Shown: positions 2,901 to 23,226 of the stretch, piece after piece
Layout of the letters: every line of letters begins with the position of its first letter
How positions within the stretch are numbered: the first letter of the stretch is position 1
Source: an uncultured Sphingobium sp.
Lineage (GTDB): Bacteria; Pseudomonadota; Alphaproteobacteria; Sphingomonadales; Sphingomonadaceae
NCBI GenBank assembly: GCA_946479185.1
Contig: CAMLFF010000009.1
Span: forward strand, 1 to 25,407
Direction: 5' to 3'
Length of the DNA stretch: 25,407 nt
The notes under the pieces: model-generated
What the model was told of the DNA's origin: nothing
The model's database searches: none
What the model saw: only the letters and a program-made list of their open reading frames with translations
Translations under genes and position numbers: made by a program

Positions 2901-3488
2901 GGGGAGGCTGGCGGTTACCCAGATTGGCGAAGATAGGTATCGGACGTGAGCATGGCTCCTTCAGCCAGCAGGTGAGCCCACATGGGCCGAGGTATGGCGT
3001 CCTCTCCTTCCGCAGTGCCAGGCGTCGTCGGCGCGATTGCGCCGCGCTGCCAATCAAGTCTTGGACAGGATCTTCAGGATTGCCACTGCTGCCCGCCCCA
3101 GCGCCCGATCCGGGCACTTCGCCGATGCTCTTCCCCGTAATCCATAACGGTCATTTCTGTTCGCCCCGTAAGCTCGAAAAATCCATAACGTCCAACAGTT
3201 GCTCACAAGATATCGGCCGAACTTTAAGCAGGCTGGCGGCTCTGCAGACTGCCAGCGATCATGCAAAGCCGACTGGCATTATGGAGAGCCGGAAAATCCA
3301 TCGCATCGCTACAAACGCAGCTCTGCGAAGCGGAATGAAACTCGCCAGTGTTGCATTACTACAACCGCGCCTGTCGTTGAACCATAAAACGGTAACAGCT
3401 GCAACAATGATCTTGCTCAACCATGCTGCACATGTAGATGTTTCAACTTGTAGCAAGCATCAGAATTAGATGCAGGGGAGGAAAGTCG
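2901..3488. other. Intergenic scar and upstream region of the first TonB receptor
   Basis: No credible gene is seen. Several open frames cross the stretch, the longest a 212-codon plus-strand frame starting at 2831, but they resemble no family and run through the IS110 junction. A short direct repeat AATCCATAACG occurs near 3139-3149 and 3179-3189. The promoter of the receptor must lie here, but I cannot point to convincing -35/-10 boxes. The TGGT-N3-ACCA palindrome found before the second receptor is absent here. The purine-rich GGGGAGGAAAG just before 3489 is the receptor's ribosome-binding site. Confidence 0.4.
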
Positions 3489-9272: not shown

Positions 9273-9413
9273 TCAGAAGGCTCGTTGCTCAACGATCCTG
9301 AGACCATAAGCTTCAAGGCCGACCGGAACGCGGTGACGATCGGTCAGAAGAACGATGTCACGCGCTCCCAGTTCCGCGAGAATTTGGGCACTAATTCCAT
9401 ATTCTCCTAGCGT
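9273..9413 (-). pseudogene. 3' remnant of a GTP cyclohydrolase II (ribA/ribBA) gene
   Basis: On the minus strand, 46 codons encode EYGISAQILAELG, then VLLTD, then VGLEAYGLRIVEQRAF and a TGA. This is the pattern of the extreme C-terminus of GTP cyclohydrolase II or of bifunctional RibBA (EYGIGAQIL..LG, LLTN, VGLEGYGLxIVE). The remaining 150 or more residues, including the zinc-binding cysteines, are absent, and sequence beyond 9413 does not resemble the family. The remnant's stop abuts the stop of the DUF1593 gene tail to tail with no spacer. It marks an old rearrangement end point and should make no functional enzyme. Confidence 0.75.
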
Positions 9414-9747
9414 GCCCTTCTGGTGCCGGAAGGATGAGTGCCTTGTATTCCGGCGACCATCCAACAACCTTCATCTCGCAAATACGGCACTTTTGGAGCG
9501 GCTTATTTAGCTGGTGCAATCAACTCGCCTCGCTCACCTGCGCAACATTTGGTCTTACCAATTAAGATTGCAAGAATTCTTTTGATTCAGCCGCGGCCGA
9601 ACACATACTCGCTTTTCCGGCGATCTCAGTAGTCGGGATGCAGCCAAATGATAAAATTGGCCAACTAATCTCGACAGTAGGAATTTTAATTGATATAGCC
9701 AATCCATACAAGGTGATCAGGCCAAATCTATGGGTAGGGGATGTGAC
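9414..9747. promoter_or_regulatory. AT-rich upstream region of the second TonB receptor
   Basis: The stretch is clearly richer in A+T than its surroundings and contains no credible gene. It holds the palindrome TTGGTCTTACCAA (9549-9561), a nearby AAGAATTCTT (9572-9581), and two candidate ribosome-binding sites. One is ATCAGG before the ATG at 9730; the other is AGGGGATG before the GTG at 9748. The promoter is expected here, but no single -35/-10 pair stands out. Confidence 0.55.
9549..9561. promoter_or_regulatory. FadR/GntR-type operator palindrome before second TonB receptor
   Basis: TTGGT-CTT-ACCAA is a perfect inverted repeat with 5-bp arms and a 3-bp spacer, fitting the TGT/TGGT-N3-ACA/ACCA shape bound by FadR-subfamily GntR regulators. 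Its core TGGTCTTACCA is the exact reverse complement of TGGTAAGACCA at 20986-20996, before the regulator gene in this window. It also resembles the E. coli ExuR/UxuR type TTGGTATACCAA. It lies 187 nt before the GTG start at 9748. The match is seen directly; binding is inferred. Confidence 0.65.
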
Positions 9748-12681
9748 GTGAGCGGGATTTTCTCATTTTTCGGCGGTGGTTCGGCCAGCCTTCAGCAGCG
9801 TAGCCTCAAGCTTGGGCTGTTGACCGGCGTTTCTGCGCTGATCATTGCATCGCCAGTTGCAGCGCAGCAGGCGTCGCCGAGCACGCAAACAGCGCCCCAG
9901 TCCGAAGCTGACGTGCAGGATATCGTTGTCACCGCCTCGCGAATCGTGCGTGATGGCTACACAGCGCCAACGCCGACGACTGTGGTGAGTCAGGAGTTTG
10001 TTCTGCAGCGCGCTATTACCAATATCGGCGATGCGCTGAACAAGGTGCCGGCCTTCCGGGCGGCTGTTTCGCCAAATGCTGGCGGCCTTGGCAACACAGG
10101 TGCCTTCTTGGCTGATCTTCGTGGTCTGGGCCCAACGCGCACATTGGTTCTTCTTGATCGCGGGCGTTTGCCGCAAACCATTGTTCCCGGCGCCGCCAAT
10201 ACGGCGGGATCGACCGATCTCAACGTGATCCCTACAGTTCTTATCCGCAACTCCGATGTGGTCACGGGCGGCGCGTCGGCGGCTTATGGATCGGATGCGG
10301 TCGCGGGTGTCATCAACTTCCAACTCGATGACCGCTTCACCGGCCTCAAGGGTTCGGCGCAATATAGCGAAACCGAATATGGCGATGCCAAGACCAAGTT
10401 TGCAACGCTTGCTGCCGGAACAAGCTTTGCAGGTGGCCGCGGCCATGCTGTGATCGGGTTCGAATATTTCGACGATGGTGGCAGCGACATTTACAACACG
10501 GCGCGTCCCTGGGGGCGTGAAGGTTGGGCGAGCGCAACCATCACGAACCGGCCGGCTGGCACGCCCAGCACGATCCTCGCACCCAACGGCTCCTATTTCG
10601 GCACCGGCACGAGCGGCGGTCTAATCCTTTCCAACGGCGCGCTAAGGGGGCTGGCATTCGTGCCAACGGCTGCTGGCGGCGTTACGACGGCTCGGTTCAC
10701 GCCTGGTCTGTCCAACCTGACCTCCAGCTTGGACTTTTTCTCAGATGCCGCCGTGGCTGCCAACCGCGCTGCGGGGATCGACCATTTTTCGACCGAGCAG
10801 CTGCGTCCTGCGCAGACCCGCTACAATGTGATGGGTAAAGTGTCGTTCGAAGCGAGCGATAATCTGACATTTTATGTGTCGCCACTTTACTCGCATGTTT
10901 CGTCGACCGGCTCGATCATCACACGGCGCGACGGTGCGGGTGCAGGCCCTGCGCTTACGATCGCGCGTGACAACCCTTATCTCGCGCAGGCATTGACGCC
11001 TGAGCAGTTCGCTCTTGTGCCGACCGGCGGGCTTTCCGTGGGCTATGTCGGTTTGGCGTTCGGCCCCAATTACCGGACGGTCAAGAAAGAGCTTATCCGC
11101 GTTCAGACCGGCGTCGAGGGTTCTTTTGGTGACAGCTGGAAGTGGGATGTGTCCTATGTTTATGGCCAGAACACCTCTGACATTTCGATCTTCAACAACT
11201 TCAACAATGTGAACTTCCGCAGCGCGCTCGATGCGGTTTCCCTGAATGGTCAGATCGTTTGCCGCAATGCGACAGCGCGGGCAGCGGGTTGCGTGCCGAT
11301 CAACATTCTGGGTGCGCCTAGTGTGTCGGACGCCGCGCGTGCGGACATCATCGGCACAGCGACAGGCACTGGCAAGACGGTGCTGAACGACGTGTCGGCG
11401 AACTTGCAGGGTGAGCCCTTCTCGACATGGGCTGGCCCGGTTTCGATTGGCATCGGTGTAGATTACCGCAAGGAGTCCATCGAGCTTTCGTCTGATCCAT
11501 TATCGCGATCCGGCGCCTGGTTCACGACTGCGGGCATTGTCCTGCCAAAGGTCGCTCAGACTGTGAAGGAAGCCTATTTCGAGACGATCGTGCCGCTGGC
11601 AACGGATGTTTCCTTCGCCAAGAAGCTGGAATTCAACGGCGCGGTCCGCGTCACGGATTACAGCACGTCCGGCAGCGTCGTGACCTGGAAGGCCGGCTTG
11701 ACCTGGGAAGTGATCGACGGGCTGTTGTTCCGCACGACACGCTCGCGCGATATTCGTGCGCCTAACCTTATCGAACTGTTCACGCCGCAAACAGCCTCAC
11801 TACCGCTGCCAAACGATCCCCGCGTGGGTGTCGCCCGGCCAACGAACAATGCAGGCTTCTTCGTTGGCGGTAACCCCAATCTGACGCCCGAAAAGGCGAC
11901 CACGCAGACGGTGGGCTTCACCTATCAGCCAAGCTTCTTCAACAGGCTGCAATTCTCGGTCGACTATTATAATATCGAGATCGAGGATGCGATTACGTCG
12001 ACCAGCACGCAAGGCGTAGTGAACAACTGCTTCGTAGGCGGTGTTTACACCAACAATAGCTGGTGCTCATTGCTCAGCTTCGCCAATAATGATCCTGTGG
12101 CCGGGCAACTGACTGGCGCACAGGGCATCACGGCCAACGTCGCGAGCTTCAAGGCTAAGGGCCTCGATTTCCAGGTCAGCTATCGCCAGCCTCTGGCGAA
12201 TGGCGTTTTGAGCATGAACTTGCTCGCAACCCATGCGATTTCCTTCAAGTCGTCGACCGATGTGTCCACGCTCTTCCCGAATGGTATCGATCGTGCGGGC
12301 CAGACCGGCGCGCAGTTCGGTGGTCCTGCTGGTGTGCCCAAGTGGCTGGTCAACTACACGGCGGATTATGAAGTCGGACGTGTTGGGTTGAACGCCAACG
12401 TGCGGTTCGTGTCCAAGTCTAATGTGAATAATGGTCTCTTCGGTCCCGGCGAGCCTGAATATAATCCTGCACTTGCGACCAGCATCAATAATAACACCAT
12501 CCTGGACGCCGCCTATCTTGACCTTGGTGTTCGCTACAAATTGGGCAGCAGCGAGAATATCACGGTCTATTTCAACGTCGACAACGTCTTCAACCGCAAC
12601 CCACCACTGCCTGCAACGGGCAGCGCCTATTACGACCTGATGGGCCGGACGTATAAGGGCGGCGTGAGGTTCTCCTTCTAA
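9730..12681 (+). CDS. TonB-dependent outer-membrane receptor (second, large)
   Basis: This is a receptor of up to 983 residues. The N-terminal region has a hydrophobic Sec leader (about residues 27-45, cleavage near SPVAA), a TonB box DIVVTA at 64-69, and a plug with RGLGPTRTLVLLDRGR and VVTGGASAAYGSDAVAGV. The C-terminal barrel ends in GGVRFSF with the terminal Phe. This is the long sugar-associated plug type (VPAFR, RTLVLLDGRR style) common in sphingomonad and Caulobacter carbohydrate loci. Either ATG 9730 or GTG 9748 may start it; AGGGGATG 4-7 nt before the GTG favours 9748, giving 977 residues. The operator at 9549-9561 points to uronate-responsive control, and a uronic-acid-containing glycoside is the likely cargo (inference). 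A strong hairpin follows the stop, but the creatininase-like gene starts only 119 nt on. Confidence 0.93.
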   Translation: MGRGCDVSGIFSFFGGGSASLQQRSLKLGLLTGVSALIIASPVAAQQASPSTQTAPQSEADVQDIVVTASRIVRDGYTAPTPTTVVSQEFVLQRAITNIGDALNKVPAFRAAVSPNAGGLGNTGAFLADLRGLGPTRTLVLLDRGRLPQTIVPGAANTAGSTDLNVIPTVLIRNSDVVTGGASAAYGSDAVAGVINFQLDDRFTGLKGSAQYSETEYGDAKTKFATLAAGTSFAGGRGHAVIGFEYFDDGGSDIYNTARPWGREGWASATITNRPAGTPSTILAPNGSYFGTGTSGGLILSNGALRGLAFVPTAAGGVTTARFTPGLSNLTSSLDFFSDAAVAANRAAGIDHFSTEQLRPAQTRYNVMGKVSFEASDNLTFYVSPLYSHVSSTGSIITRRDGAGAGPALTIARDNPYLAQALTPEQFALVPTGGLSVGYVGLAFGPNYRTVKKELIRVQTGVEGSFGDSWKWDVSYVYGQNTSDISIFNNFNNVNFRSALDAVSLNGQIVCRNATARAAGCVPINILGAPSVSDAARADIIGTATGTGKTVLNDVSANLQGEPFSTWAGPVSIGIGVDYRKESIELSSDPLSRSGAWFTTAGIVLPKVAQTVKEAYFETIVPLATDVSFAKKLEFNGAVRVTDYSTSGSVVTWKAGLTWEVIDGLLFRTTRSRDIRAPNLIELFTPQTASLPLPNDPRVGVARPTNNAGFFVGGNPNLTPEKATTQTVGFTYQPSFFNRLQFSVDYYNIEIEDAITSTSTQGVVNNCFVGGVYTNNSWCSLLSFANNDPVAGQLTGAQGITANVASFKAKGLDFQVSYRQPLANGVLSMNLLATHAISFKSSTDVSTLFPNGIDRAGQTGAQFGGPAGVPKWLVNYTADYEVGRVGLNANVRFVSKSNVNNGLFGPGEPEYNPALATSINNNTILDAAYLDLGVRYKLGSSENITVYFNVDNVFNRNPPLPATGSAYYDLMGRTYKGGVRFSF

Positions 12682-12689
12682 TAGATAGC

Positions 12690-12727
12690 GTCTGAGGGTG
12701 GGGTGTTCACACTTCCCACTCTCAGAC
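12690..12727 (+). terminator. Stem-loop terminator after second TonB receptor
   Basis: GTCTGAG at 12690 pairs with CTCAGAC ending at 12727. The inner GTGGG/CCCAC and GTG/CAC blocks also pair around a short TTCA loop, giving an almost complete long stem starting 8 nt after the stop. It is followed by ATTTCT, a weak T-run. It may terminate or attenuate, lowering expression of the downstream periplasmic genes relative to the receptor. Confidence 0.65.
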
Positions 12728-12800
12728 ATTTCTGGCGCATGGCTGCCCTTTATCGGCACGCGCCTCGGCGATTCCAAGCGTTCTAGAAATTGGGGATCTC

Positions 12801-13775
12801 ATGAAAAACCTTCTCAAGACCGTGACGCCAATTCTTTCTCTCGTTGCAGCAGCGGCCATCGCCGTAACGGCGACGCCTGCGTCGGCGCAGAAGTCAGCCC
12901 CTGCCAAGGCGACAAAGGCCGTGCCCGAGATGCGCTCGCGGTTGCTGACCACCCTGACCGGCTGGGAAGTGACTGAATATCTCAAGCGCAATGATGTGAT
13001 CTATGTGCCGATCGGCCCGGTCGAGCAGAATGGCGGCAGCCCTACGGATGTCGAATATGTCATCCCGCTCGCTTATGCGACGGAGCTTGCCGCCAAGAGC
13101 GACGGTCTTGTCATGCCTTACCTCGCCTATTTCTATCCCGGCGGCACGACGACGAGCCCGGCGACAGTCTATGTCTCGACCTCAGACAGTCTGCCCTATC
13201 TCAAGGCGATCACGCGCTCGCTGATCCGCCAGGGCTTCCGCCGCATAGTGTTTCTGACGTCGCATGGCCCTTCGGCCAACACGATGCTGCCGCTCGTGCG
13301 CGAGACGTTCGATGAATATCATGTGCCGGTGCTGTGGATGGATACCGGCATGGTCCGTCCGACGAAGCCCGGCGAGGGGCCGCCCCGCTTTGGCGATGGT
13401 CCGCCCAATGCGCGCAATTTGAGCATCTATGGTTCCTATCAGCTTGTCGGGCGCCTCAACGACATCCCCGTTGGCCTGACCCAGCCCAAGCACGAAATCC
13501 TGCGCGATCCGAGCAATCTCTCGCGCTATGCACCGCCGTTCAATGGCACGCCCGCTGGCAGCTTCTATCCCGACCCTGCCGAGCATGGCGGCTTTGTCGA
13601 GCCGGTGACTGCCGAACAACGTGATCAGTGGGGCCGTGAGGGCGCTGCCTTTATCAAGGCGCAGGTGGCGGGTTATGATGCGAACGGAATGCTCGATGCG
13701 CTCCGCAAGCGGGACGAGTTCACGCGTGAGCTCGAAAAGAAATATGGTGATTTGCTGCCCGCAGCGGGCCGCTAA
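12801..13775 (+). CDS. Secreted creatininase-family protein with altered metal site
   Basis: This 324-residue protein has a clear Sec leader (residues 1-29, ending TPASA). The creatininase fold is recognisable from VIYVPIGPVEQNGGS (residues 66-80), TDVEY and FLTSHGPSAN (151-160). Classical members are cytoplasmic amidohydrolases or deformylases with the motifs GSTEQHGPHLP..TD and NGHGGN/GHxEN. Here Glu75 and an Asp (D83) remain, but the His of EQHG is Asn77, the loop before the Asp is about 3 residues shorter, and the position after His155 that usually carries Glu or Gly is Pro157. The metal site must therefore differ from creatininase. Family relatives open rings or cut C-N or C-C bonds (creatininase, the riboflavin/F420-pathway deformylase ArfB, the inosose hydrolase IolN). 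A periplasmic role on a sugar derivative is inferred from its place between a TonB receptor and a GH2 enzyme. Confidence 0.85.
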   Translation: MKNLLKTVTPILSLVAAAAIAVTATPASAQKSAPAKATKAVPEMRSRLLTTLTGWEVTEYLKRNDVIYVPIGPVEQNGGSPTDVEYVIPLAYATELAAKSDGLVMPYLAYFYPGGTTTSPATVYVSTSDSLPYLKAITRSLIRQGFRRIVFLTSHGPSANTMLPLVRETFDEYHVPVLWMDTGMVRPTKPGEGPPRFGDGPPNARNLSIYGSYQLVGRLNDIPVGLTQPKHEILRDPSNLSRYAPPFNGTPAGSFYPDPAEHGGFVEPVTAEQRDQWGREGAAFIKAQVAGYDANGMLDALRKRDEFTRELEKKYGDLLPAAGR

Positions 13776-13824
13776 CATCAAACGATCGACGCGATAATTT
13801 GAGCTTTAGGTTAGGAAGAACAAC

Positions 13825-16497
13825 ATGACTTGGTCTGCTGCCCGCTGGGGTTCTCACTTCATGGCAGCAGCCTGCCTCAGCTCCGCACTCGTCGCGCAAG
13901 TGCCGCAGGCGCCCCGGGACGTCACGACGCTCAGCGACGGCTGGGCCTTCAAAATGGGTGGTGTGGTCGATCCGACCTCCGCCCAAATAGGCAGCGAGGG
14001 CTGGGAAAAGGTCTCGGTGCCGCACACTTGGAACCGTGCCGGCTATTATCTTGGCGATCCGGCCAGCCACATCAATACCGCCGAGAACATCAACAAGACG
14101 CAAGGCGTGGGCTGGTACAAGCTGGCGTTCAGCGCGCCCGCGCTGACAGACGGTCGTCGAGCGTGGCTGCAATTTGATGCCGCGAGCCGTTTGGCGGAAG
14201 TTTGGCTGAACGGCGTGCGACTGGGCGAGCATCGCGGCGGATTTTCAAGGTTCCGGTTTGACGCGACGGCTGCCATGCGTCCGGGGCAAGCGAATGTGCT
14301 GGTGGTGCGTGTGGACAATACCCAGCCGGCCAAGGGTGTAAACACGCCAGCCACCTTCCCGTTGACGGGCGACTTCTTCATTCATGGCGGTCTGTATCGG
14401 CCGGTAAGCCTGATCGTTACGGACGCCGTGCATATCGACATGCTCGATTTTGGCGGGCCGGGTGTTTACGCGCAGACCAAGACGGTGCGTGGTCGCAATG
14501 CCGATGTGCAGGTGAGCTCGCGCATCCGCAATGATGGCGGCGCGGCGCACACCGTTCGCCTTGTCACCCAGCTCGTCGATGCGTCTGGCAAATCGGTCGC
14601 GAAAGCCGAGCAGATTCTGGCCTTGAAGGCGGGTGAAACAGCCCAGCCCGTTCAGCAGCTTGCCGTGAAGCGCGCGCGGTTATGGCAGGGCGTTGCCGAC
14701 CCGTATCTCTATACCCTGCGCACGGAAGTGCGTGCAGAGACCGGCGAAGTGCTCGACACGCAAGATCAGGCCTTCGGAATCCGCACCATGCGCCTCGACC
14801 CCGCCAAGGGCTTTTTCCTCAACGGAAAGCCGCTCAAGCTGCACGGTGTTGGCCTCCATCAGGATTGGGAAGGCAAGGGCTGGGCGCTCGGCCCGAAAGA
14901 GGTTTCCGATACCGTCGATATCATTCGGGAAATGGGCGCGAACACCATTCGCCTCACCCATTATCAGCATGGCTCGCCCATCCATGAGATTGCCGACCGC
15001 ACCGGCCTGATCCTGTGGGATGAGATCGCAGTGGTGACGGCCTGGACTTTGGGTGATGACAAGGAAGTGTCGCCCGAGTTGCGCGCCAATGCGCATCAGC
15101 AATTGCAGGATCTGATCCGGCAGAATTATAATCATGCCTCGGTCGCGGTGTGGGGCCTTGCGAACGAGGTCGACTTTGGACCGGGACGCCCTGATTTTCT
15201 GGGTCGTCCGCCCGCCAATGTGCTCGATCCGATGGAGTTTCTGCGCGAGCTGAACACGCTCGCCAAAAGCGAAGACCCCAACCGCCCCACCGTGATTGCA
15301 AATTGCTGTGAAGATCGCGGGATGAAGGACGTGCCGCTGACGGCAGATGCTGCCGATGCCTCGGGCGTAAATCGCTACTTCGGCTGGTATTATGGGGAAC
15401 CGCATGAGCTGAGCAATCACCTCGATAAGATACGCGCCGCACGTCCGCATCAGCCGCTCTCGGTCAGCGAATATGGCGCAGGCGGCGACATTACGCTGCA
15501 CACCGATAATCCACTCGGCGGACCGATCGATATGGCGGGCCGGGTGCAGCCCGAGGAATATCTCTCCTGGATCCACGAAGAGAATTGGAAGATCATCAAG
15601 ACGAAGGATTATCTGTGGGGTAGCTGGCTGTGGAACAGCTTTGATTTCGCGACGACGGTTCGTAGCGAAGGAGAGTCTCGCGATATCAATACCAAGGGTC
15701 TCGTCACTTATGATCGCAAGGTCAAAAAGGACGCTTTCTACTTCTACAAGGCGAACTGGTCGGATGCGCCGACGGTTCATGTGACGGGCCGTCGCTATGT
15801 CGATCGCGCCTATCCCGTGATGCAGGTGCGGGTTTACAGCAATGCACCCACGACGCGATTGACGGTGAATGGCAAGGCCATCGGCCAAAAGACCAATTGT
15901 CCGGATCGCATTTGCGTGTGGGAGAATGTGCGTCTTGCGGCGGGGCAAAACGCTGTCATCGCGACTGGGGCGTTCAAGCAGGGCGCCGTGAGCGACGAGG
16001 TGACGTGGAACCTTGGCGAAGCAAATGCGATGGCATTCCGGATCGACAGCGGCACTATTCTCGCCGCGCCATCGCCCGTGCCGTTCGGTTCAGACGCATG
16101 GTTTGTGGGCGGCAAAGCAGGGAGCACGGATTCGCCGGGTGGACGCGGCCGCAAGCCGTTCACGGCGCCCATCGTCGGCAGCACCAATCGCAATGTGGCG
16201 GCGAGCTTCCGCGAGGGTGATTTCCATTATCGGCTTCCGTTGGAGGCTGGGCGCTACAAGGTTGAACTGACCTTTCTGGAGCCTGAAAAGCCCGCTGGCG
16301 CGCGTAGCTTCAACGTGTCTGCGAACGGCGCTCCGCTTCTGCAGGCGCTTGATGTGGCGCAGGCTGCAGGTGGGAAATTGACCGAACTGCGCCGCAACTT
16401 TGAAACCGTTGTGGGGGCGCGCGGGCTTGATCTGCATTTCCAGCCGGGTACAGGCCCGGCAATCGTGTCCGCTATCGAGGTCACCCCGATCAAGTGA
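13825..16497 (+). CDS. Secreted GH2 glycoside hydrolase with malectin-like domain
   Basis: This 890-residue protein has an N-terminal Sec leader (to about residue 29, SSALVA). GH2 domains follow in order. The jelly-roll sugar-binding domain is at about 35-190 (WLNGVRLGEHRGGFS near 127). Next is an Ig-like domain at about 195-310. The TIM barrel is at about 320-610 (GVGLHQDWEGKG near 338), with acid/base Glu448 in WGLANEVDF and nucleophile Glu549 in SVSEYGAGG. An Ig-like C-domain is at about 640-730. A malectin/carbohydrate-binding domain covers about 736-888 (AFRIDSG start). Catalysis should be retaining exo-cleavage of a beta-glycoside. GH2 covers beta-galactosidases, glucuronidases and mannosidases, and the neighbouring uronate genes make a beta-glucuronidase-type activity attractive but unproven. 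AGGAAG 6 nt before the ATG supports the start. The stop overlaps the next gene by 4 bp. Confidence 0.93.
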   Translation: MTWSAARWGSHFMAAACLSSALVAQVPQAPRDVTTLSDGWAFKMGGVVDPTSAQIGSEGWEKVSVPHTWNRAGYYLGDPASHINTAENINKTQGVGWYKLAFSAPALTDGRRAWLQFDAASRLAEVWLNGVRLGEHRGGFSRFRFDATAAMRPGQANVLVVRVDNTQPAKGVNTPATFPLTGDFFIHGGLYRPVSLIVTDAVHIDMLDFGGPGVYAQTKTVRGRNADVQVSSRIRNDGGAAHTVRLVTQLVDASGKSVAKAEQILALKAGETAQPVQQLAVKRARLWQGVADPYLYTLRTEVRAETGEVLDTQDQAFGIRTMRLDPAKGFFLNGKPLKLHGVGLHQDWEGKGWALGPKEVSDTVDIIREMGANTIRLTHYQHGSPIHEIADRTGLILWDEIAVVTAWTLGDDKEVSPELRANAHQQLQDLIRQNYNHASVAVWGLANEVDFGPGRPDFLGRPPANVLDPMEFLRELNTLAKSEDPNRPTVIANCCEDRGMKDVPLTADAADASGVNRYFGWYYGEPHELSNHLDKIRAARPHQPLSVSEYGAGGDITLHTDNPLGGPIDMAGRVQPEEYLSWIHEENWKIIKTKDYLWGSWLWNSFDFATTVRSEGESRDINTKGLVTYDRKVKKDAFYFYKANWSDAPTVHVTGRRYVDRAYPVMQVRVYSNAPTTRLTVNGKAIGQKTNCPDRICVWENVRLAAGQNAVIATGAFKQGAVSDEVTWNLGEANAMAFRIDSGTILAAPSPVPFGSDAWFVGGKAGSTDSPGGRGRKPFTAPIVGSTNRNVAASFREGDFHYRLPLEAGRYKVELTFLEPEKPAGARSFNVSANGAPLLQALDVAQAAGGKLTELRRNFETVVGARGLDLHFQPGTGPAIVSAIEVTPIK

Positions 16498-17480
16498 TCC
16501 GGGTCGGTCTTCTTGGCGCCGGGATGGCGGGGAGGGTTTTTCACGCCCCGCTAATCCGCGCGGTCCCTGAGCTCGACCTAGCGTGCATGGTTGGGTCGAG
16601 CGAGAGCCTGGCGACCATCGCGCGTGCGGACATCGATGTGATCGTCATCGCAACGCCGCATGACACGCATTTTGATCTGGCGCAGCGCGCGTTGCTGGCT
16701 GGCAAGCATGTCGTCATTGATAAGCCCTTCGCCTTGAGCGTTGCGGATGGTGAGCGGCTGATCGCGCTCTCCAAGCGCGTTGGCCGATTGCTGACGGTGT
16801 TTCACAACCGGCGGTGGGACGGGGATTTTCTGACGGTGCGGGACATTCTCGCGCAAGGGATGTTGGGCGAGGTGCGCCTGTTCGAGGCCTATTGGGATCG
16901 CTTCCGCCCGGACATCAAAGCCGGATGGCGCGAGAGCGCAGCGCCGGGCGCGGGCATTGTGTGGAATTTGGCGCCGCACCTTGTCGATCAGGCGCTACTT
17001 CTCTTCGGTATGCCTGATGCAGTTCGGGCGGACATCGAAACACAGCGTGCTGCGGCGGAGGTCGAGGACTATTTTCAAGCCACGCTCTTTTACGGCGCAT
17101 CTCGTGTGCATCTCGGCGCGTCTAGCCTCGTGGCGGCGGCCCGGCCTCGCTTTGCGTTGCACGGAACGCAGGGCAGCTTCGTCAAATTCGGGCTGGATCC
17201 GCAGGAAGACCGGCTTGCAGCGGGCGGGCATCCGCTGAGCGCTGGCTTTGGCAAGGATGTGCAGGATGGCTATGGCCAGCTGTCCATTGCGTATGCCCCG
17301 GCCCGAGCAATCACAACGCACAGCGGCGCCTATGTGGAGTTTTACCGCACCCTCGCAGATGCCATTGCAACAGGCACACCATTGCCTGTCGAACCATCCG
17401 ACGCGCTGAGTGGGCTCAAGATTCTCGAGGCAATCCACAGCAGCGCCGCAGCGGGCGTCGTGGTTAAAATATCTGCCTGA
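16494..17480 (+). CDS. Gfo/Idh/MocA-family oxidoreductase, short N-terminal domain
   Basis: This is a 328-residue NAD(P)-dependent sugar oxidoreductase without a signal peptide, so cytoplasmic. The Rossmann glycine motif VGLLGAGMAGRVFHAPLI is at the N-terminus. DVIVIATPHDTH and the catalytic-Lys motif GKHVVIDKPFA follow, and the C-terminal GFO/IDH/MocA domain contains GGGIVWNLAPHLVDQ-like sequence (here GAGIVWNLAPHLVDQ, with the conserved His). The GTG start at 16494 overlaps the GH2 TGA (GTGA), which implies translational coupling and a shared pathway. About 15-20 residues normally found between beta-strand 2 (CMVGSS) and beta-strand 4 (DVIVIATP) are missing: the chain goes from SSESLATIAR straight to ADIDV. 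It may be a natural short variant or a deletion damaging cofactor binding. It likely oxidises or reduces the sugar released by the GH2 enzyme. Confidence 0.92.
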   Translation: MIRVGLLGAGMAGRVFHAPLIRAVPELDLACMVGSSESLATIARADIDVIVIATPHDTHFDLAQRALLAGKHVVIDKPFALSVADGERLIALSKRVGRLLTVFHNRRWDGDFLTVRDILAQGMLGEVRLFEAYWDRFRPDIKAGWRESAAPGAGIVWNLAPHLVDQALLLFGMPDAVRADIETQRAAAEVEDYFQATLFYGASRVHLGASSLVAAARPRFALHGTQGSFVKFGLDPQEDRLAAGGHPLSAGFGKDVQDGYGQLSIAYAPARAITTHSGAYVEFYRTLADAIATGTPLPVEPSDALSGLKILEAIHSSAAAGVVVKISA

Positions 17481-17523
17481 GCAATTTGATTGACCTACCT
17501 GACCAATTTAAATAGCCGTTTAC

Positions 17524-17536
17524 GTCTTGGGAAGAC
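17524..17536. promoter_or_regulatory. Small palindrome in MFS gene leader
   Basis: GTCTT-GGG-AAGAC is a perfect inverted repeat with 5-bp arms, upstream of the leader ORF. It does not fit the TGGT-N3-ACCA operator. It could be an operator for another protein or chance. Confidence 0.25.
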
Positions 17537-17548
17537 TGGAGACCGTCG

Positions 17549-17599
17549 ATGTATGATCTGAAACGACCAGTGCCTTCTCAATCGCGCGAGCAAAACTGA
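17549..17599 (+). CDS. Putative 16-residue leader ORF coupled to MFS transporter
   Basis: A short frame (MYDLKRPVPSQSREQN) has a better ribosome-binding site (GGAGA, 6 nt before the ATG) than the transporter itself, whose start is preceded only by GCGAGCAAAACTG. Its stop TGA at 17597-17599 overlaps the transporter ATG as TGATG, the classic layout for translational coupling or reinitiation. It is in another frame, so it is not an N-terminal extension. The peptide has no recognisable function. The ORF could also be chance, as it is only 16 codons. Confidence 0.4.
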   Translation: MYDLKRPVPSQSREQN

Positions 17600-18864
17600 T
17601 GTTTTCGCGGCGCATTGGCAATCTTCGCTGGTGGATCATCGGGCTGGTGACGCTCGGCACAGTGCTGAACTATCTGGCCCGCTCGACGCTATCGGTCGCG
17701 GCGCCCACGCTCAAAGCCGAATTCTCCATGACGACCGAGGAATATAGCTGGGTCGTTCTGGCGTTCCAGGGCACTTACACGATCATGCAAACGGTTGCCG
17801 GAACGGTGCTCGATGCGCTGGGCACGCGGCTTGGCTTCTTCATCTTCGCGATCGGTTGGGCGCTCTCCAACATGGCGCATGCCTTCGCCACAGGCTGGCC
17901 AAGCCTCGCATTCTTTCGCGGCCTGCTAGGCGCGACCGAGGCTGCCGCCATTCCGGCGGGTGCGAAGGCGGTATCGGAATGGTTCCCCCCGCGCGAACGT
18001 CCGCTTGCCACTGGCGCGTTTCAGATGGGCACCAGCGTTGGCAATATGCTCGCGCCGCCGCTTGTCGCCTTCTGCATCCTGTGGTGGGGCTGGGAATCCG
18101 CCTTTGTGGTGACCGGTGCGCTCAGCCTGCTCTGGGCGGCGATGTGGTGGTTTGGCTACCGCACGCCTGCCGAGCATAAGGGGCTTTCCGGCACCGAGCG
18201 CGAACATATCGAGAGCGGTCGTGTCGAGGACGCGGAGGGCAAGCCCGCAACGCGCAAAGCGGTGCTCAAGTCGCGCGGCTTCTGGTCCATCGCGATACCG
18301 CGCTTCCTCTCCGAACCGGCCTGGCAGACATTCAACTTCTTCATCCCGCTCTATCTCGTCGCCGTGTGGGATCTGGATCTGCGCAGCATTGCGCTATGGG
18401 CCTGGATACCCTTCCTCGCCGCAGATTTCGGATCATTGGCCGCTGGTCTGCTTCCAGCCTGGCTGATGAAGCGGGGGGTGTCGCTCATCGATTCCCGCAA
18501 GATCACGATGACGACCGGCGCTGTCTTCATGGTCGGCCCGGCCTGCATTGGGCTGGCACATTCGCCGGGCGTTGCGATTGCCCTGTTCTGCGTGGGCGGC
18601 TTTGCGCATCAGATGCTCAATGGCGCGTTGATTACTTTGTGCTCGGATGTTTTCGATAGCCGCACGGTCGGCACGGCAAGCGGCATGACAGGCTCAGCCG
18701 CGTGGATCGGCGGGATGCTGTTCACGTTCCTGATTGGCCAGAGCGCGGATTCCTTCGGCTACAACCCGCTGTTCGTTGCGCTGGCGGGACTCGATCTTCT
18801 TGCAGCGGCGGTGCTCTGGACGTTGCTCAGGAACCGGAAGGCGGGATCGCGCCAGGTCGCATGA
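17599..18864 (+). CDS. MFS transporter, ExuT-like hexuronate uptake
   Basis: This 421-residue inner-membrane carrier has about 12 hydrophobic helices. It matches the anion:cation symporter branch of the major facilitator superfamily, with an N-terminal LNYLARSTLSVAAPTL (helix 1), RGLLGATEAAAIPAG and VSEWFPPRERPLATGAF (the WFP..ER.LA.G signature between helices 4 and 5) and GTSVGNMLAPPL. ExuT, GudP and DgoT belong to this branch, taking up hexuronates or hexonates with protons. Adjacency to uxaC, uxuB, manD and kdgK makes glucuronate/galacturonate the best guess, though a short uronosyl-saccharide is possible. The start ATG lacks a good ribosome-binding site and overlaps the stop of the leader ORF. 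Its 3' end overlaps the convergent kdgK gene by 38 bp. Confidence 0.93.
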   Translation: MFSRRIGNLRWWIIGLVTLGTVLNYLARSTLSVAAPTLKAEFSMTTEEYSWVVLAFQGTYTIMQTVAGTVLDALGTRLGFFIFAIGWALSNMAHAFATGWPSLAFFRGLLGATEAAAIPAGAKAVSEWFPPRERPLATGAFQMGTSVGNMLAPPLVAFCILWWGWESAFVVTGALSLLWAAMWWFGYRTPAEHKGLSGTEREHIESGRVEDAEGKPATRKAVLKSRGFWSIAIPRFLSEPAWQTFNFFIPLYLVAVWDLDLRSIALWAWIPFLAADFGSLAAGLLPAWLMKRGVSLIDSRKITMTTGAVFMVGPACIGLAHSPGVAIALFCVGGFAHQMLNGALITLCSDVFDSRTVGTASGMTGSAAWIGGMLFTFLIGQSADSFGYNPLFVALAGLDLLAAAVLWTLLRNRKAGSRQVA

Positions 18865-19714
18865 TGGTCCATGCGGCCAGAACATGGCCTTCACGGGCTG
18901 CTGCTTCGGGGGGGGCGCCCTGAAGGCGCGCGGAGAGATAGCCTGCGTCAAAGGCGTCGCCCGCGCCGCTGGTGTCGACCGGCTCCAGCTTTAGGCCGGG
19001 CGCGATGATGGCGCCATTCGCCAAGCGGCAGCCCTCTTGGCCCAGCTTTACAACGACCTCGCGGCAGCCGAGCGCGGTCCACTTCTGCGCAACCTGCTCG
19101 GCATTGCTGGCGCCCCACAGTTCCTGCTCGTCGGAGAGCGTGGGCAGGCCGATGTCAGCGACAGCGATGCCCTGTTCCAGCGCAGCTATCGCTTCGGCCT
19201 GACTTGCCCACAAGCGCGATCGATAATTGCCGTCGAATGCTACCTTCCCGCCATTGGCGCGGACGCGCTTGGCCAGATTGATAAGCTTTGCACGATCATC
19301 CGGCGATAGAATGGCGAACGTGATGTGCGAGAAGAAGAACAGATCGCATTGCTCGATGGCAGGCAATAGCGCCGCCAGCGCCTCGAGCTGAAAAATCTCC
19401 CGCGCCGCGCTGGTCTCGCGCCAATAGGTGAAGGTCCGCTCGCCCTGATCGTCCGTCGTAATGGCATACAGCCCCGGCGTGCGGCGGGGATGTGTGAGTA
19501 CATAATCAAGAGCAACGCCCTCGGCCGCCCATTTCCTCCTCAGCTCATCACTGAAGGGGTCGCTGCCCAGCGCTGTCAGATAAGCGACATCATGCCCTTT
19601 GCGCGCAAGGTGGATGGCCGTGTTGAGCGTGTCACCGCCAAAGCCCAGCCCCCAGCCGCTCTTCGACCGGGAGAGCTCGAGCATGCCTTCACCGCAACTG
19701 ACAATCCGAGCCAT
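18827..19714 (-). CDS. kdgK: 2-keto-3-deoxygluconate (KDG) kinase, PfkB family
   Basis: This 295-residue ribokinase/PfkB-fold protein phosphorylates KDG to KDPG, the last uronate-specific step before the Entner-Doudoroff aldolase. The N-terminal substrate-binding part has GFGGDTLNTAIHLAR (PfkB motif 1, G-G-x-x-x-N). The C-terminal ATP-binding/catalytic motif is DTSGAGDAFDAGYL with catalytic Asp253. AFDGNYRSRLW in the middle matches KDG kinases, where NYR-type residues contact KDG. The ATG at 19714 follows the TAA of manD with zero spacing, so the two are one operon and probably translationally coupled. The 3' end overlaps the opposite-strand transporter. Assignment as KDG rather than another sugar kinase rests on family resemblance plus the mannonate dehydratase next to it. 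Confidence 0.9.
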   Translation of the reverse strand: MARIVSCGEGMLELSRSKSGWGLGFGGDTLNTAIHLARKGHDVAYLTALGSDPFSDELRRKWAAEGVALDYVLTHPRRTPGLYAITTDDQGERTFTYWRETSAAREIFQLEALAALLPAIEQCDLFFFSHITFAILSPDDRAKLINLAKRVRANGGKVAFDGNYRSRLWASQAEAIAALEQGIAVADIGLPTLSDEQELWGASNAEQVAQKWTALGCREVVVKLGQEGCRLANGAIIAPGLKLEPVDTSGAGDAFDAGYLSARLQGAPPEAAAREGHVLAAWTIMRPGAIPPSGS

Positions 19715-20923
19715 TTACCAGCTCCACATCGTCCCATCTTCAAGCCGGGCGACCGGCAGATAAGCGCGCTTATACGGATATTTCGCGGCCAGCGCCTCAT
19801 CGATGTCCACGCCATGTCCCGGCTTCTCGCTGCAGATCAGATAGCCATCCTCAAAGCGATAGTCGTGCGGGAAGACAGCGTCCGTCTCAGGCGTTTGGCG
19901 CATATATTCCTGAATGCCGAAATTGGGCACCCAGGTATCGAAGTGGAGCGCAGTGCCCATGGTGACGGGCGAGAGGTCCGTCGCGCCGTGGCAACCGGTG
20001 CGCACCTGATAAAGGCTCGCCAGATCGGCAATGCGGCGCAGATGGGTGAGGCCGCCTGCGCCCACGATCGTGGTGCGGATATAGTCGATCAGCTGGTTCT
20101 GGATCAGATCCTTCGCGTCCCAGATCGTGTTGAAGATCTCGCCAACCGCCAGAGGCGTAACGGTGTGCTGGCGTACCAGCTTGAACGCTTCCTTATTCTC
20201 GGCAGGCGTCACATCTTCCAGCCAGAAGAGCTGGTAGGGCTCCAGCATCTTGCCCAGATTGGCCGCTTCCTGCGGGGTGTAGCGGTGATGGCCGTCATGC
20301 AGCAGATGATGATCGAAGCCATAGGTGGCGCGCAGCTTTTCGAACAGCTTGGGCACATAGTTCAGCGCCTTGCGCGTATCCCATCCGGTTGAACTGGGCA
20401 GGTCCGCATCGGCGGGCTCATAATAGAGTTTGCCGCGGCCCACGCCATAAGCATCCTTGATGCCGGGCACGCCGGTCTGCGCGCGGATCGCCTTATAGCC
20501 CATGTCGATATAGTGGCCGACCGCTTGGACCGTATCTTCGATCGTGTCGCCATTGGCATGGCCATACACCATCACGCGATCACGGCTGCGGCCTCCGAGC
20601 AATTGATAGAGCGGCATCCCGGCCATCTTGGCCTTGATGTCCCACAGGGCTACGTCGACAGCAGCAATTGCCCGCATGGTGACGGGGCCGCCGCGCCAAT
20701 AAGCGCCCTTGTAGAGATATTGCCACGTGTCTTCGATCGCCTGTGGATCACGCCCGATGAGGGTCGGGATCACATGATCTTCCAGATAGGAGACGACCGA
20801 AAGCTCCCGGCCATTGAGAGTAGCGTCGCCAATGCCATAGACGCCCTGATCCGTCTCGATCTTGAGCGTAACGAAATTGCGCCCTGGACTGGTTACGATA
20901 ACTTTGGCGCTGGTGATCTTCAT
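19715..20923 (-). CDS. manD: D-mannonate dehydratase, enolase-superfamily ManD
   Basis: This 402-residue enzyme converts D-mannonate to 2-keto-3-deoxygluconate with Mg2+. It is nearly the same throughout as the structurally studied N. aromaticivorans ManD as I recall it. Metal ligands are Asp in [11 protein letters not shown], Glu in FWLEDVTP and Glu in AVGEIFNT. Catalytic-region residues include Arg and Tyr around [14 protein letters not shown], His in DGHH and His in CHGATDLSP. The C-terminus [11 protein letters not shown] is family-typical. I chose the ATG at 20923 ([10 protein letters not shown]) because homologues begin there. An in-frame ATG at 20956 has the stronger ribosome-binding site (AGAGGGG, 5 nt before) and would add 11 residues. 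It is first in the minus-strand operon with kdgK, transcribed away from the regulator gene across the 20984-20998 operator. Confidence 0.95.
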
Positions 20924-20983
20924 GTTTGTGCTACCCTTGCTAGCGGGGAAACTCATTCTACCCCTCTTGCCAATTTCAAGTCC

Positions 20984-20998
20984 AGTGGTAAGACCACT
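20984..20998. promoter_or_regulatory. FadR/GntR-type operator in divergent manD/regulator promoter
   Basis: AGTGGT-AAG-ACCACT is a perfect 15-bp palindrome with 6-bp arms and a 3-bp centre. It lies between the divergent manD and regulator starts (13 nt before the regulator ATG at 21012). The position is ideal for simultaneous repression of both operons and autoregulation. Its core TGGTAAGACCA is the reverse complement of the core at 9549-9561. The shape is that of FadR-subfamily sites, and the adjacent gene encodes such a regulator. Confidence 0.75.
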
Positions 20999-21011
20999 TT
21001 AAGAGGAATTT

Positions 21012-21788
21012 ATGTCGCCAAAAGGAAAAGATAGTCCGGTGACGGTCTCAACGCGCATCTATGAGCGGCTGGCGCGTCAACTTGCGGGTGAGCTTGGAAG
21101 CGGCGCTTACAAGATTGGCGACCGGCTGCCCGCCGAGCGAGAGCTTGCGCTGGAATATCAGGTGAGCAGGCCTGCTGTGCGGGAAGCCATGATTGCGCTG
21201 GAAGTGCAAGGCCTCATCGATGTGCGCATCGGATCAGGCGCTTATGTGAAGCGCTTGCCCGGCGGAACCGATGAAGAATCCCTTTTTCACGCCACGGCCT
21301 TTGAGGTGACGGAAGCCCGGCTGCTGATAGAGGGTGAGGCTGCTGCGCTGGCCGCGTCCCAGATCAGTGATGAGGAAGTCACGCAGCTTGAGGAGCTGAT
21401 CGCGCAAATGGGCCGCGCTGATTTACGCGTTGGTGAGAGTGAGGCGGCGGACCGCGCCTTTCATCTGCTTATCGCACAAGCGACGCGAAACGCAGTGATC
21501 AGCAACACCGTCGAGCGGCTTTGGGATTTGCGCGTAACCTCGCCCGAATGCGTGCTGCTGCATGAGAAATCCCGCGATGCTGGCAATCGCCCGGTGCCGG
21601 ACGAGCATGAGATGATCGTGGCCGCGCTGAGGAACCATGACCCTGCTGCCGCGCGCGCCGCGATGCGCCAGCATTTGAGCCAGGTGATGGATTATCTGCT
21701 GTTCGCAACGGAAGAGCGGGCTTTGGCAGAAGCGCGCAAGTCTGTGGATTCAAAGCGCCAGCGCTACGCCGGCTCAGCAATTTTATAA
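21012..21788 (+). CDS. FadR-subfamily GntR regulator of uronate genes
   Basis: This 258-residue DNA-binding regulator has an N-terminal winged helix-turn-helix (about 15-80; LPAERELALEYQVSRPAVRE is the recognition-helix region, with GSGAYV as wing) and a C-terminal all-helical FCD ligand-binding domain (about 95-230). The usual acidic and histidine metal/ligand positions are visible in DRAFHLLIAQAT, DEHEMIVAAL and MRQHL. The family includes the uronate repressors ExuR and UxuR. AGAGGA 7 nt before the ATG supports the start. It is first in the plus-strand operon with uxaC (19 nt gap) and uxuB, and diverges from manD-kdgK over a matching palindrome. It is likely a repressor relieved by a uronate-pathway intermediate (inference). 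Confidence 0.93.
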   Translation: MSPKGKDSPVTVSTRIYERLARQLAGELGSGAYKIGDRLPAERELALEYQVSRPAVREAMIALEVQGLIDVRIGSGAYVKRLPGGTDEESLFHATAFEVTEARLLIEGEAAALAASQISDEEVTQLEELIAQMGRADLRVGESEAADRAFHLLIAQATRNAVISNTVERLWDLRVTSPECVLLHEKSRDAGNRPVPDEHEMIVAALRNHDPAAARAAMRQHLSQVMDYLLFATEERALAEARKSVDSKRQRYAGSAIL

Positions 21789-21807: not shown

Positions 21808-23226
21808 ATGAACGACACCGCGCTTGTGCTGCATCCAGATCGGCTGTTCCCCATCGACCCGACGGTGCGCGCCATCGCTCGCGATCTATATGGCGCGGTC
21901 GCACATTTGCCGATCATCAGTCCGCATGGGCATACGGACCCGAAATGGTTCGCGACGAACGAGCCGTTCAGCAATGCTGCGGAATTGCTGCTGCTGCCGG
22001 ACCATTATTTGTTCCGGATGCTCTATAGTCAGGGCATTCCGCTCGAAAGTCTGGGACTTTACCCAAAGGGCTATGCTGGAGAGCACACCAGCGCCCGTGA
22101 AGCCTGGCGCATCTTCGCGGCCAATTATCACCTGTTCCGCGGCACCCCCTCGCGCATGTGGCTCGACTGGGTGTTCGCCGAGGTGTTCGGCATGACGCAG
22201 CCGTTCAGTGCGGCCACTGCCGATCTCTACTTTGATGCGATCACGGCAGCGCTGAGCGAAGAGGCTTTTCACCCCCGCGCGCTGTTCGAGCGGTTCAATA
22301 TCGAGGTGATCGCGACCACTGAGTCGCCAATCGATGATCTGCGGCATCATGCCGCGATCCGCGAGAGTGGCTGGTCAGGCCGTGTTATCACCGCATATCG
22401 CCCAGACCCGGTGATCGATCCCGAATTTGAAGGGTTTAAGAACAATCTCCAGCGCATGTCCGATCTGACGGGTGAGGACTGCTTTAGCTACACGGGCTAT
22501 CTCAACGCCCATCGCAAACGGCGCGCCTTTTTCGCGCAGATGGGCGCGACCTCGACCGATCATGGCCACGCCACCGCCGCCACGGCTGATCTGACGGCAC
22601 AAGAGGCCGAGCAGCTCTTCGCAACGGTGACCGCAAGCACTCCAACACCGGCAGAGGCCGAGCTTTTCCGCGCGCATATGCTCACCGTGATGGCGGGCAT
22701 GAGCGTGGAGGATGGGCTGGTGATGCAGCTCCACCCCGGGAGCTTCCGCAATCATAATCGCAGCCTGTTCGAGCGGCTTGGGCGAGACAAGGGCGCTGAT
22801 ATTCCGATGCAGACCGATTATGTGCATGGCCTGCGTCCGTTGCTGGATCGCTATGGCAACGATCCGCGCCTGACGCTCATTCTGTTTACGCTGGATGAGA
22901 CCGCCTATGCGCGCGAACTCGCGCCGCTGGCAGGCCATTACCCAGCGCTGAAGCTTGGGCCGGCATGGTGGTTCCACGATAGTCCCGAGGGCATGCGGCG
23001 CTTCCGCAACCAGATGACCGAGACGGCCGGCTTCTACAATACCGTTGGCTTCAATGACGACACACGGGCCTTCCTCTCGATCCCGGCACGCCATGATGTT
23101 GCGCGGCGGGTGGATTGTGGTTTCCTCGCCCAACTGGTCGCGGAGCATCGCATAGCCGATTGGGAGGCAGCAGAACTTGCGGTCGACCTGAGCTATAATC
23201 TTGCGAAAGCGGCGTATAAATTATGA
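21808..23226 (+). CDS. uxaC: Uronate (glucuronate) isomerase
   Basis: This 472-residue amidohydrolase-superfamily TIM barrel has the usual length for UxaC. It interconverts D-glucuronate with D-fructuronate and D-galacturonate with tagaturonate. The N-terminal metal motif is SPHGHTD (His40, His42), followed by EPFSNAAELLLLPDHYLFRML and IEVIATTESPIDDLRHH in the middle (strings interrupted here by no gaps in the gene). C-terminal blocks GPAWWFHDSPEGMRRFRNQ and TDDTRAFLS-like FNDDTRAFLSIPARHDVARR match the family. It acts in the cytoplasm as the first step after uptake. Its stop overlaps the uxuB start as ATGA, implying coupling. No separate promoter is seen between it and the regulator gene. 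Confidence 0.95.
   Translation: MNDTALVLHPDRLFPIDPTVRAIARDLYGAVAHLPIISPHGHTDPKWFATNEPFSNAAELLLLPDHYLFRMLYSQGIPLESLGLYPKGYAGEHTSAREAWRIFAANYHLFRGTPSRMWLDWVFAEVFGMTQPFSAATADLYFDAITAALSEEAFHPRALFERFNIEVIATTESPIDDLRHHAAIRESGWSGRVITAYRPDPVIDPEFEGFKNNLQRMSDLTGEDCFSYTGYLNAHRKRRAFFAQMGATSTDHGHATAATADLTAQEAEQLFATVTASTPTPAEAELFRAHMLTVMAGMSVEDGLVMQLHPGSFRNHNRSLFERLGRDKGADIPMQTDYVHGLRPLLDRYGNDPRLTLILFTLDETAYARELAPLAGHYPALKLGPAWWFHDSPEGMRRFRNQMTETAGFYNTVGFNDDTRAFLSIPARHDVARRVDCGFLAQLVAEHRIADWEAAELAVDLSYNLAKAAYKL

Follow-up and report, generated by a model that had tools for sequence, protein, structure and literature searches.

In Escherichia coli, UxuR and ExuR are described as autorepressors that control UxaC, UxuB and UxuA as well as UidA, a glucuronidase, and two transporters, UidB and UidC (PMC9369180, in the part cited here). 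Operators of the FadR subfamily, to which such regulators belong, consist of TKGT and ACMA boxes in which GT and AC are typically separated by 3 nt, or by 2 nt (PMC4494728, consensus section). Here we describe a 25,407-bp stretch of DNA from an uncultured Sphingobium sp. (GCA_946479185.1, contig CAMLFF010000009.1, positions 1 to 25,407), referred to below as the window, in which one palindrome (O1) precedes a gene for a TonB-dependent receptor and a second (O2) lies between manD and the gene for a FadR-subfamily regulator. Our analysis indicates that these palindromes are probably operators of this regulator (21012-21788), which would act as an ExuR/UxuR-like repressor of three adjacent operons.

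Results

The two palindromes, O1 (TTGGTCTTACCAA) and O2 (AGTGGTAAGACCACT), contain the same 11-bp core, TGGTAAGACCA, which is found at 20986-20996 and as its complement at 9550-9560, so that the cores are exact reverse complements, as the initial annotation had noted. Both sites have the form TGGT-N3-ACCA, with TKGT/ACMA boxes and the 3-nt spacing of FadR-subfamily operators. The pattern TGGTNNNACCA occurs only twice in the whole window (9550 and 20986), against a mean of 0.09 in 100 dinucleotide-preserving shuffles, one of which reached two; the claim that these are the only two perfect sites, made for intergenic DNA, therefore holds for the full 25,407 bp. Allowing up to two mismatches to TGGTAAGACCA gave seven matches, with 2.37 expected and two of 100 shuffles reaching seven. 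O1 is located in the intergenic region 9273-9729, with its center ~175 bp upstream of the receptor start. The center of O2, in the intergenic region 20957-21011 between the manD open reading frame (ORF) and the regulator, is 21 bp ahead of the regulator ATG and 68 bp ahead of the likely manD ATG at 20923.

The motif is strongly over-represented ahead of the relatives of the regulator. In the best 80 of 551 relatives (38-67% identity), which were searched with the motif as derived from the window, the best TGGTNNNACCA match within 300 bp upstream had no mismatch in 11 cases, one in 41, two in 24 and three in 4; stretches of 305 bp taken at random from these loci, drawn from all DNA, intergenic or not, and hence a control that somewhat favors AT-rich motifs, gave 0.7, 9.1, 50.3 and 39.5% for the same classes. 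A 19-bp matrix was built from 22 distinct sites with at most one mismatch, taken from the loci of the 33 best-matching relatives (L001-L033) and excluding the window; 11 of these 33 loci gave no matrix site or a duplicate. The choice of sites was guided by the TGGT-N3-ACCA core, which the matrix therefore presupposes and does not demonstrate.

When all positions of the window were ranked with this matrix, the highest were 9550 (23.7), 20986 (17.8) and 9691 (15.9), followed by 20554 (11.9). The O1 score was equalled in one of 4000 dinucleotide shuffles of the AT-richer region 9273-9729 (P 0.00025, the matrix being independently trained), and the O2 score in none of 4000 shuffles of 20957-21011. 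The score of 15.87 at 9691 was reached in 11 of 4000 shuffles of 9273-9729 (P 0.00275), and two positions of at least 15.87 in none. This third site is probably a second, weaker receptor operator (TAATTGATATAGCCAATCC). Both sites of the initial annotation stand, and this one, with its core at 9691-9701, had been overlooked. The receptor of the window is preceded by two sites, of which the distal is strong and the proximal weak. The match at 20554, inside manD and likewise present in the manD genes of relatives, was rejected as an operator because on codon reading it encodes the conserved residues YGHAN. When 15 window genes were scored within 350 bp upstream, those not behind O1 or O2 reached at most 8.3; no site precedes the first TonB receptor (best upstream score 4.1), a histidine-kinase-like ORF or the Sde182-like gene, all three of which were excluded from the regulon, and the uronate genes of the window all lie downstream of O1 or O2.

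Conservation of the site was assessed in orthologues of the receptor, found at E ≤ 1e-250 in one of 397 family genomes and eight of 195 genus genomes, counts that are lower bounds because the best two or four candidates per genome were scored. These nine proteins are 70-79% identical to the window receptor (tblastn). In the 350 bp ahead of each of the nine genes, together with the first 30 bp of the gene, the best matrix score is 12 or higher (12.2, 14.2, 17.2, 18.2, 18.2, 18.7, 18.8, 19.9 and 22.9), whereas none of 30 non-orthologous receptors (36-41% identity) attains 12, the highest reaching 11.6 in a control that was oriented and covered ~600 bp ahead of the aligned start (only ~220 bp for L082, and with an approximate start for L090). 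The initial annotation had staked its reading on such conservation, which is what we find. Among 95 other genes of the orthologue loci, 13 reach 12, eight reach 14 and six reach 16; several of the 13 are uronate genes, a sulfatase gene or a divergent neighbor sharing a site. Eight of the nine orthologues have their best site in a proximal position, between -11 and -64 relative to a start that was extrapolated from the alignment, which is also where the 9691 site of the window lies; the ninth (L127) scores 11.9 at -36 and has its best score, 17.2, at -253. L121, L122, L125 and L127 each have an additional site, located between -190 and -295 and with a score of 11.3 to 17.2, and extra sites occur at -108 in G155 (L112; 16.0) and at -44 in L126 (14.1). 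This conservation ahead of nine of nine orthologues contradicts a chance recurrence of a short palindrome in an AT-rich intergenic stretch. Short sites do arise by chance in whole genomes, and the reversed control described below has three sites in 22 genomes, but with 0.09 occurrences expected in the window and the O1 score so seldom reached by shuffling we consider chance a very improbable explanation.

The regulator carries both FadR-subfamily domains (PF00392, 61.6 bits with a cut-off of 27; PF07729, 93.1 bits with a cut-off of 24.3), and its best solved-structure matches include PdhR and NanR. It scores below the cut-offs of the E. coli equivalog models for ExuR (NF008571; 151.9 bits, cut-off 396) and UxuR (NF007588; 117.5 bits, cut-off 442), and its operator spacing is 3 nt, the UxuR type being 2 nt. 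The initial annotation had likened the operators to the sites of both E. coli proteins; of the two, ExuR and not UxuR has the 3-nt spacing found in the window (PMC4494728, same section). Regulator homologues at E ≤ 1e-30 are present in eight of the nine receptor-orthologue genomes, and the upstream scores of all ten homologues in these genomes fall between 13.2 and 19.5. In the ninth genome (G469) the contig ends ~100 bp past the site at L192:12311, and the absence of a regulator there cannot be scored; next to the counterpart of this site in G535 (L166:7919) come manD and uxuR.

An alternative is that O1 is bound by a different member of the FadR subfamily, encoded at another place in the genome and having an identical recognition helix, and that the likeness of O1 to O2 reflects a family-wide motif. 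TKGT/ACMA boxes with 3-nt spacing are common to ExuR, DgoR, FadR, GlcC, LldR, PdhR and others (PMC4494728, in the portion cited), the stretch VSRP[AT]VREA is common to all 25 aligned homologues and not peculiar to one regulon, and the matrix matches non-uronate loci too. We nevertheless regard this alternative as unlikely, because a matrix derived only from sites upstream of the regulator's relatives picks all nine receptor orthologues and none of the 30 other receptors, because in six of the nine receptor genomes just one homologue passes E ≤ 1e-30 (more distant FadR-type proteins falling outside this count), and because the receptor operon itself contains a glucuronidase-like glycoside hydrolase of family 2 (GH2) and a transporter of the major facilitator superfamily (MFS).

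The promoter regions bear on a different alternative, in which the regulator binds but activates or merely modulates the receptor operon, with the receptor mainly under another regulator. O1 is far upstream of the receptor start (~175 bp), no sigma-70-like promoter was found in 9280-9780, and in L125, L126 and L127, the only three relatives scanned for LysR, the orthologue of the receptor has a divergent LysR-family gene as its neighbor; the gap ahead of the window receptor contains no LysR gene. Set against this are the proximal site at 9691 and the proximal best sites in eight of nine orthologues, the contact between O2 and the -35 element of a promoter-like box for manD (9/12 consensus positions; shuffles gave a mean of 0.1), and the description of E. 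coli ExuR and UxuR as autorepressors (PMC9369180, cited part). We judge activation or modulation improbable. That O2 touches the manD -35-like element and stops 13 bp short of the regulator ATG is what repression of both genes would lead one to expect.

We therefore return to a single ExuR/UxuR-like repressor, the proposal of the initial annotation that one FadR-type regulator serves its own operon, manD-kdgK and the receptor, which gains support from the independent matrix and from conservation. By analogy with E. coli, a dimer of the regulator would occupy O2 and O1, and probably also the 9691 site, when uronate is absent, and would repress regulator-uxaC-uxuB, manD-kdgK and receptor-creatininase-like-GH2-Gfo/Idh-MFS. 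Entry of a hexuronate would release the regulator from its operators. The receptor would import a glucuronide or a glucuronate-bearing oligosaccharide, from which the exported GH2 enzyme would liberate glucuronate; the MFS protein would then import glucuronate, and UxaC, UxuB, ManD and KdgK would convert it to 2-keto-3-deoxy-6-phosphogluconate (KDPG).

Several observations weigh against this reading. The upstream score is weak (13.2) ahead of five of the ten uxuR homologues in receptor genomes, and one receptor orthologue likewise has only a weak site (12.2). Near-identical sites in G428, G455, G469 and G535 mean that the nine orthologues are not independent events, and within the genus the association between the receptor and uxaC falls short of significance (6 of 8, compared with 91 of 195 overall; P 0.10). 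The LysR neighbor may mean that a second regulator acts at the receptor, and for the source organism the count of FadR-type regulators covers the 25,407-bp window only. Two sites scoring 16.3, an unexplained one at L125:13901 in G540 and one at L166:7919, are situated where genes converge and a promoter would not be expected. The matrix also matches genes with no visible link, as well as other loci: one match of 20.7 is at an aminotransferase/response-regulator-like pair, and another, of 20.9, lies in a receptor/SIS/amidohydrolase/phosphotransferase system locus (L171:2826-3330). The latter region holds TGGTATT stretches resembling those quoted for NagQ and is probably the site of a different regulator. 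Finally, sites are common to some of the L001-L033 relatives (e.g. L025 and L027), so that the Fisher counts given below are not independent.

The extent of the regulon was examined in L001-L033 using a codon-usage gene caller and an upstream threshold of at least 16. Sites of this strength precede 10 of 17 TonB receptors, 4 of 14 GH2 genes and 3 of 15 MFS genes, compared with 3 of 263 unclassified genes (Fisher tests against the latter, ignoring locus relatedness, give 7e-12 for the receptors and 1e-4 for GH2). The corresponding counts for regulators (16 of 29) and manD (13 of 19) are partly training data. None was found ahead of uxaC (0 of 15), uxuB (0 of 15), kdgK (0 of 11) or GMC genes (0 of 2), the first three of which are expected downstream within operons. 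Of the places in which the initial annotation had proposed to look for matches, other TonB receptors do have them, and a divergent pair of GH115 genes has a weak one (12.7, below).

Genome-wide, the strict pattern TTGGTMWKACCAA has seven sites in 22 genomes, against three for a reversed control. Two are at manD/uxuR, one at manD/esterase-uxaC, one ahead of a receptor orthologue and one at a GH106 rhamnosidase gene; the remaining two, ahead of a nucleoside-hydrolase-like gene and at the start of a nucleotidyltransferase gene, are unexplained. The initial annotation would have given up its reading on a random scatter of matches; those of this pattern are few and not purely random, four of seven being at uronate or receptor loci. 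A looser pattern with one mismatch gave 109 matches against 23 for the control in nine genomes, and the surroundings inspected, a part of those in G535 and G527, include uronate genes and receptors but also coding DNA, other sugar loci and unrelated genes. Genome-wide lists made from the motif need filtering.

Single relatives repeat the arrangement. In G155, whose receptor orthologue is 74-79% identical to the window receptor, sites occur at MFS/GH2 (18.6), at kdgK-manD/uxuR-uxaC-uxuB (19.5) and ahead of the receptor orthologue (19.9 and 16.0), the latter ~157 kb from the other sites on the same contig. This is a repeat of the regulon in which the order of the genes differs while the same parts come under such sites. 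The G155 receptor orthologue is interrupted by an IS4/5-type DDE transposase gene (L112:9689-10489). G540 has its receptor orthologue (upstream scores 18.7 and 15.5) and manD/uxuR (17.1 and 14.7 between) within 20 kb of a divergent GH115 pair, whose shared upstream region is weak (12.7). In G527 a strong site (22.1) belongs to an MFS gene downstream of an altronate/galactarate dehydratase gene (L177:12682-16375), a hint that in this genome galacturonate genes may share the regulon. The manD/uxaC cluster of G015 (L129:218-2603) has a strong site (23.2) and an esterase-like gene in the usual place of the regulator, the homologue of which is in another locus (L016), beside an MFS gene.

The surroundings of the receptor orthologues have features of their own. 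A carboxylesterase-family gene (PF00135) adjoins the orthologue in all nine loci (L112 and L121-L128), a position occupied in the window by the creatininase-family gene, and sulfatase genes are near it in five (L122, L124, L125, L126 and L127). In 23 genomes with regulator relatives there is no orthologue of the window receptor (best 41% identity, at E ≤ 1e-100).

From left to right the window begins with a GMC oxidoreductase gene, an IS110 transposase gene (minus strand), TonB receptor 1, the histidine-kinase-like ORF, the Sde182-like gene and TonB receptor 2, the receptor of this study; there follow genes for the creatininase-like protein, GH2, Gfo/Idh/MocA and MFS proteins, kdgK and manD (both minus strand), the GntR/FCD regulator, uxaC, uxuB and a FAD monooxygenase fragment (Table 1). 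The IS110-type transposase gene (1976-2869) adjoins TonB receptor 1, which has no operator. Receptor 2 appears to start at ATG 9730 or, behind a purine-rich stretch, at GTG 9748. The five genes from receptor 2 to MFS would form one transcript. This run and manD-kdgK are convergent, so that the receptor, which the initial annotation had linked to the regulator from 11 kb away, heads the neighboring operon; the link through the sites is supported, the remoteness is not. The convergent MFS and kdgK ends overlap by 38 bp (18827-18864). The manD start is probably ATG 20923, because the family model begins at residue 12. UxaC and ManD of the Ashwell pathway score above their model cut-offs, UxuB and KdgK are best matches below theirs, and no gene for the KDPG aldolase (eda) is among the annotated ORFs of the window.

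The GH2 protein is a probable exported beta-glucuronidase, export being read from its N terminus. It has the NxK loop 8 motif that the rule for GH2 beta-hexuronidases calls for (PMC12243196, in the passage cited): its INTKGL is matched in the alignment by INDKGL in 3cmg and by MNHKGL in 6mvg, a structure that carries the name beta-glucuronidase. Against the NCBIfam model for beta-glucuronidase LacZ4 (NF050095) it scores 552.6 bits, below the cut-off of 950. The substrates of the MFS protein are probably sugar acids.

Table 1. Coordinates of genes and putative regulatory sites in the window
Feature	Position	Strand	Remarks
TonB receptor 1	3438-6050		
Sde182-like protein	7842-9272		
Putative operator O1	9549..9561	+	TTGGTCTTACCAA; top matrix score in window, 23.7
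Probable second, weaker receptor operator	9687..9705	+	TAATTGATATAGCCAATCC; core 9691-9701; score 15.9
TonB-dependent receptor (receptor 2)	9730..12681	+	983 aa; Plug and TonB_dep_Rec_b-barrel
Creatininase-family protein	12801..13775	+	apparent signal peptide (sequence reading)
GH2 enzyme	13825..16497	+	loop motif NTK (NxK type); malectin match in C-terminal part
Gfo/Idh/MocA oxidoreductase	16494..17480	+	overlaps GH2 stop codon
MFS transporter	17599..18864	+	best NCBIfam match D-galactonate transporter subfamily, 289.9 bits (below cut-off 395)
kdgK, 2-keto-3-deoxygluconate kinase	18827..19714	-	297.7 bits (below cut-off 400)
manD, D-mannonate dehydratase	19715..20956	-	724.4 bits (cut-off 550)
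Promoter-like TGGACT-N18-TAGAAT for manD	20955..20984	-	weak consensus match
Putative operator O2	20984..20998	+	AGTGGTAAGACCACT; score 17.8; common to divergent manD and regulator
FadR-subfamily (GntR and FCD) regulator	21012..21788	+	nearest NCBIfam models ExuR and UxuR, both below cut-off
uxaC, glucuronate isomerase	21808..23226	+	594.9 bits (cut-off 387)
uxuB-type fructuronate reductase	23223..24629	+	362.6 bits (below cut-off 603)

Discussion

To our knowledge, sphingomonad TonB receptors are many and mostly without a known ligand. We put forward tentatively the possibility that in sphingomonads a single uronate regulator, together with its operator, constitutes a fixed switch and that different TonB receptors have repeatedly come under its control, and that the receptor family of the window may import esterified or sulfated glucuronides. 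The first part is suggested because 10 of 17 receptors in the relatives' loci carry the site even though 23 regulator genomes have no orthologue of the window receptor, and because the window family carries it in nine of nine cases; the second, in preference to a plain oligosaccharide, because of the carboxylesterase and sulfatase genes of the relatives. By tying particular receptors to glucuronate breakdown, such a motif provides a testable ligand class for them, and receptors become sortable by regulon instead of by sequence. In the window, the unnamed receptor, the GH2 enzyme and the MFS gene become a testable glucuronide uptake unit.

Among described systems, the locus is comparable to the CUT loci of Xanthomonas and aquatic bacteria (PMC1790865, as cited in part), in which a TonB receptor, a degrading enzyme, an inner-membrane transporter and a sugar regulator occur together. 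The window has this gene content, with carbohydrate transport by the receptor being predicted. The CUT loci described there concern sucrose, pectin, xylan and maltodextrin, and the string "gntr" is absent from that text; unlike them, the window has a FadR-type regulator and a predicted glucuronide substrate. A second counterpart is the GntR-family UxuR regulon predicted in two Rhodobacteriaceae bins (PMC5507952, relevant section), which is also an alphaproteobacterial GntR-type regulator of UxaC-route glucuronate genes; in that section an ABC transporter operon is predicted and no TonB receptor is reported, unlike in the window. Among the open-licence PMC papers listed in our searches, no title or abstract opening describes a UxuR-type regulon with TonB receptors in sphingomonads, and an earlier prediction is possible, RegPrecise lying outside this search.

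The resemblance to the E. coli UxuR/ExuR regulon extends to its composition, with a FadR-subfamily regulator that governs the Ashwell pathway and its own gene as well as a beta-glucuronidase and transporters for glucuronides (PMC9369180, as far as cited), and, for ExuR, to the 3-nt separation of GT and AC in the operator (PMC4494728, likewise). Unlike in E. coli, the regulator falls far short of the cut-offs of the models for ExuR and UxuR, a single regulator is seen in the window in place of a pair, the outer-membrane step is a TonB receptor, and the mannonate dehydratase is of the ManD family. The regulation is thus of a known type, given that E. coli UxuR and ExuR already control a glucuronidase and glucuronide transporters, and what is most interesting here is its link to several families of TonB receptors.

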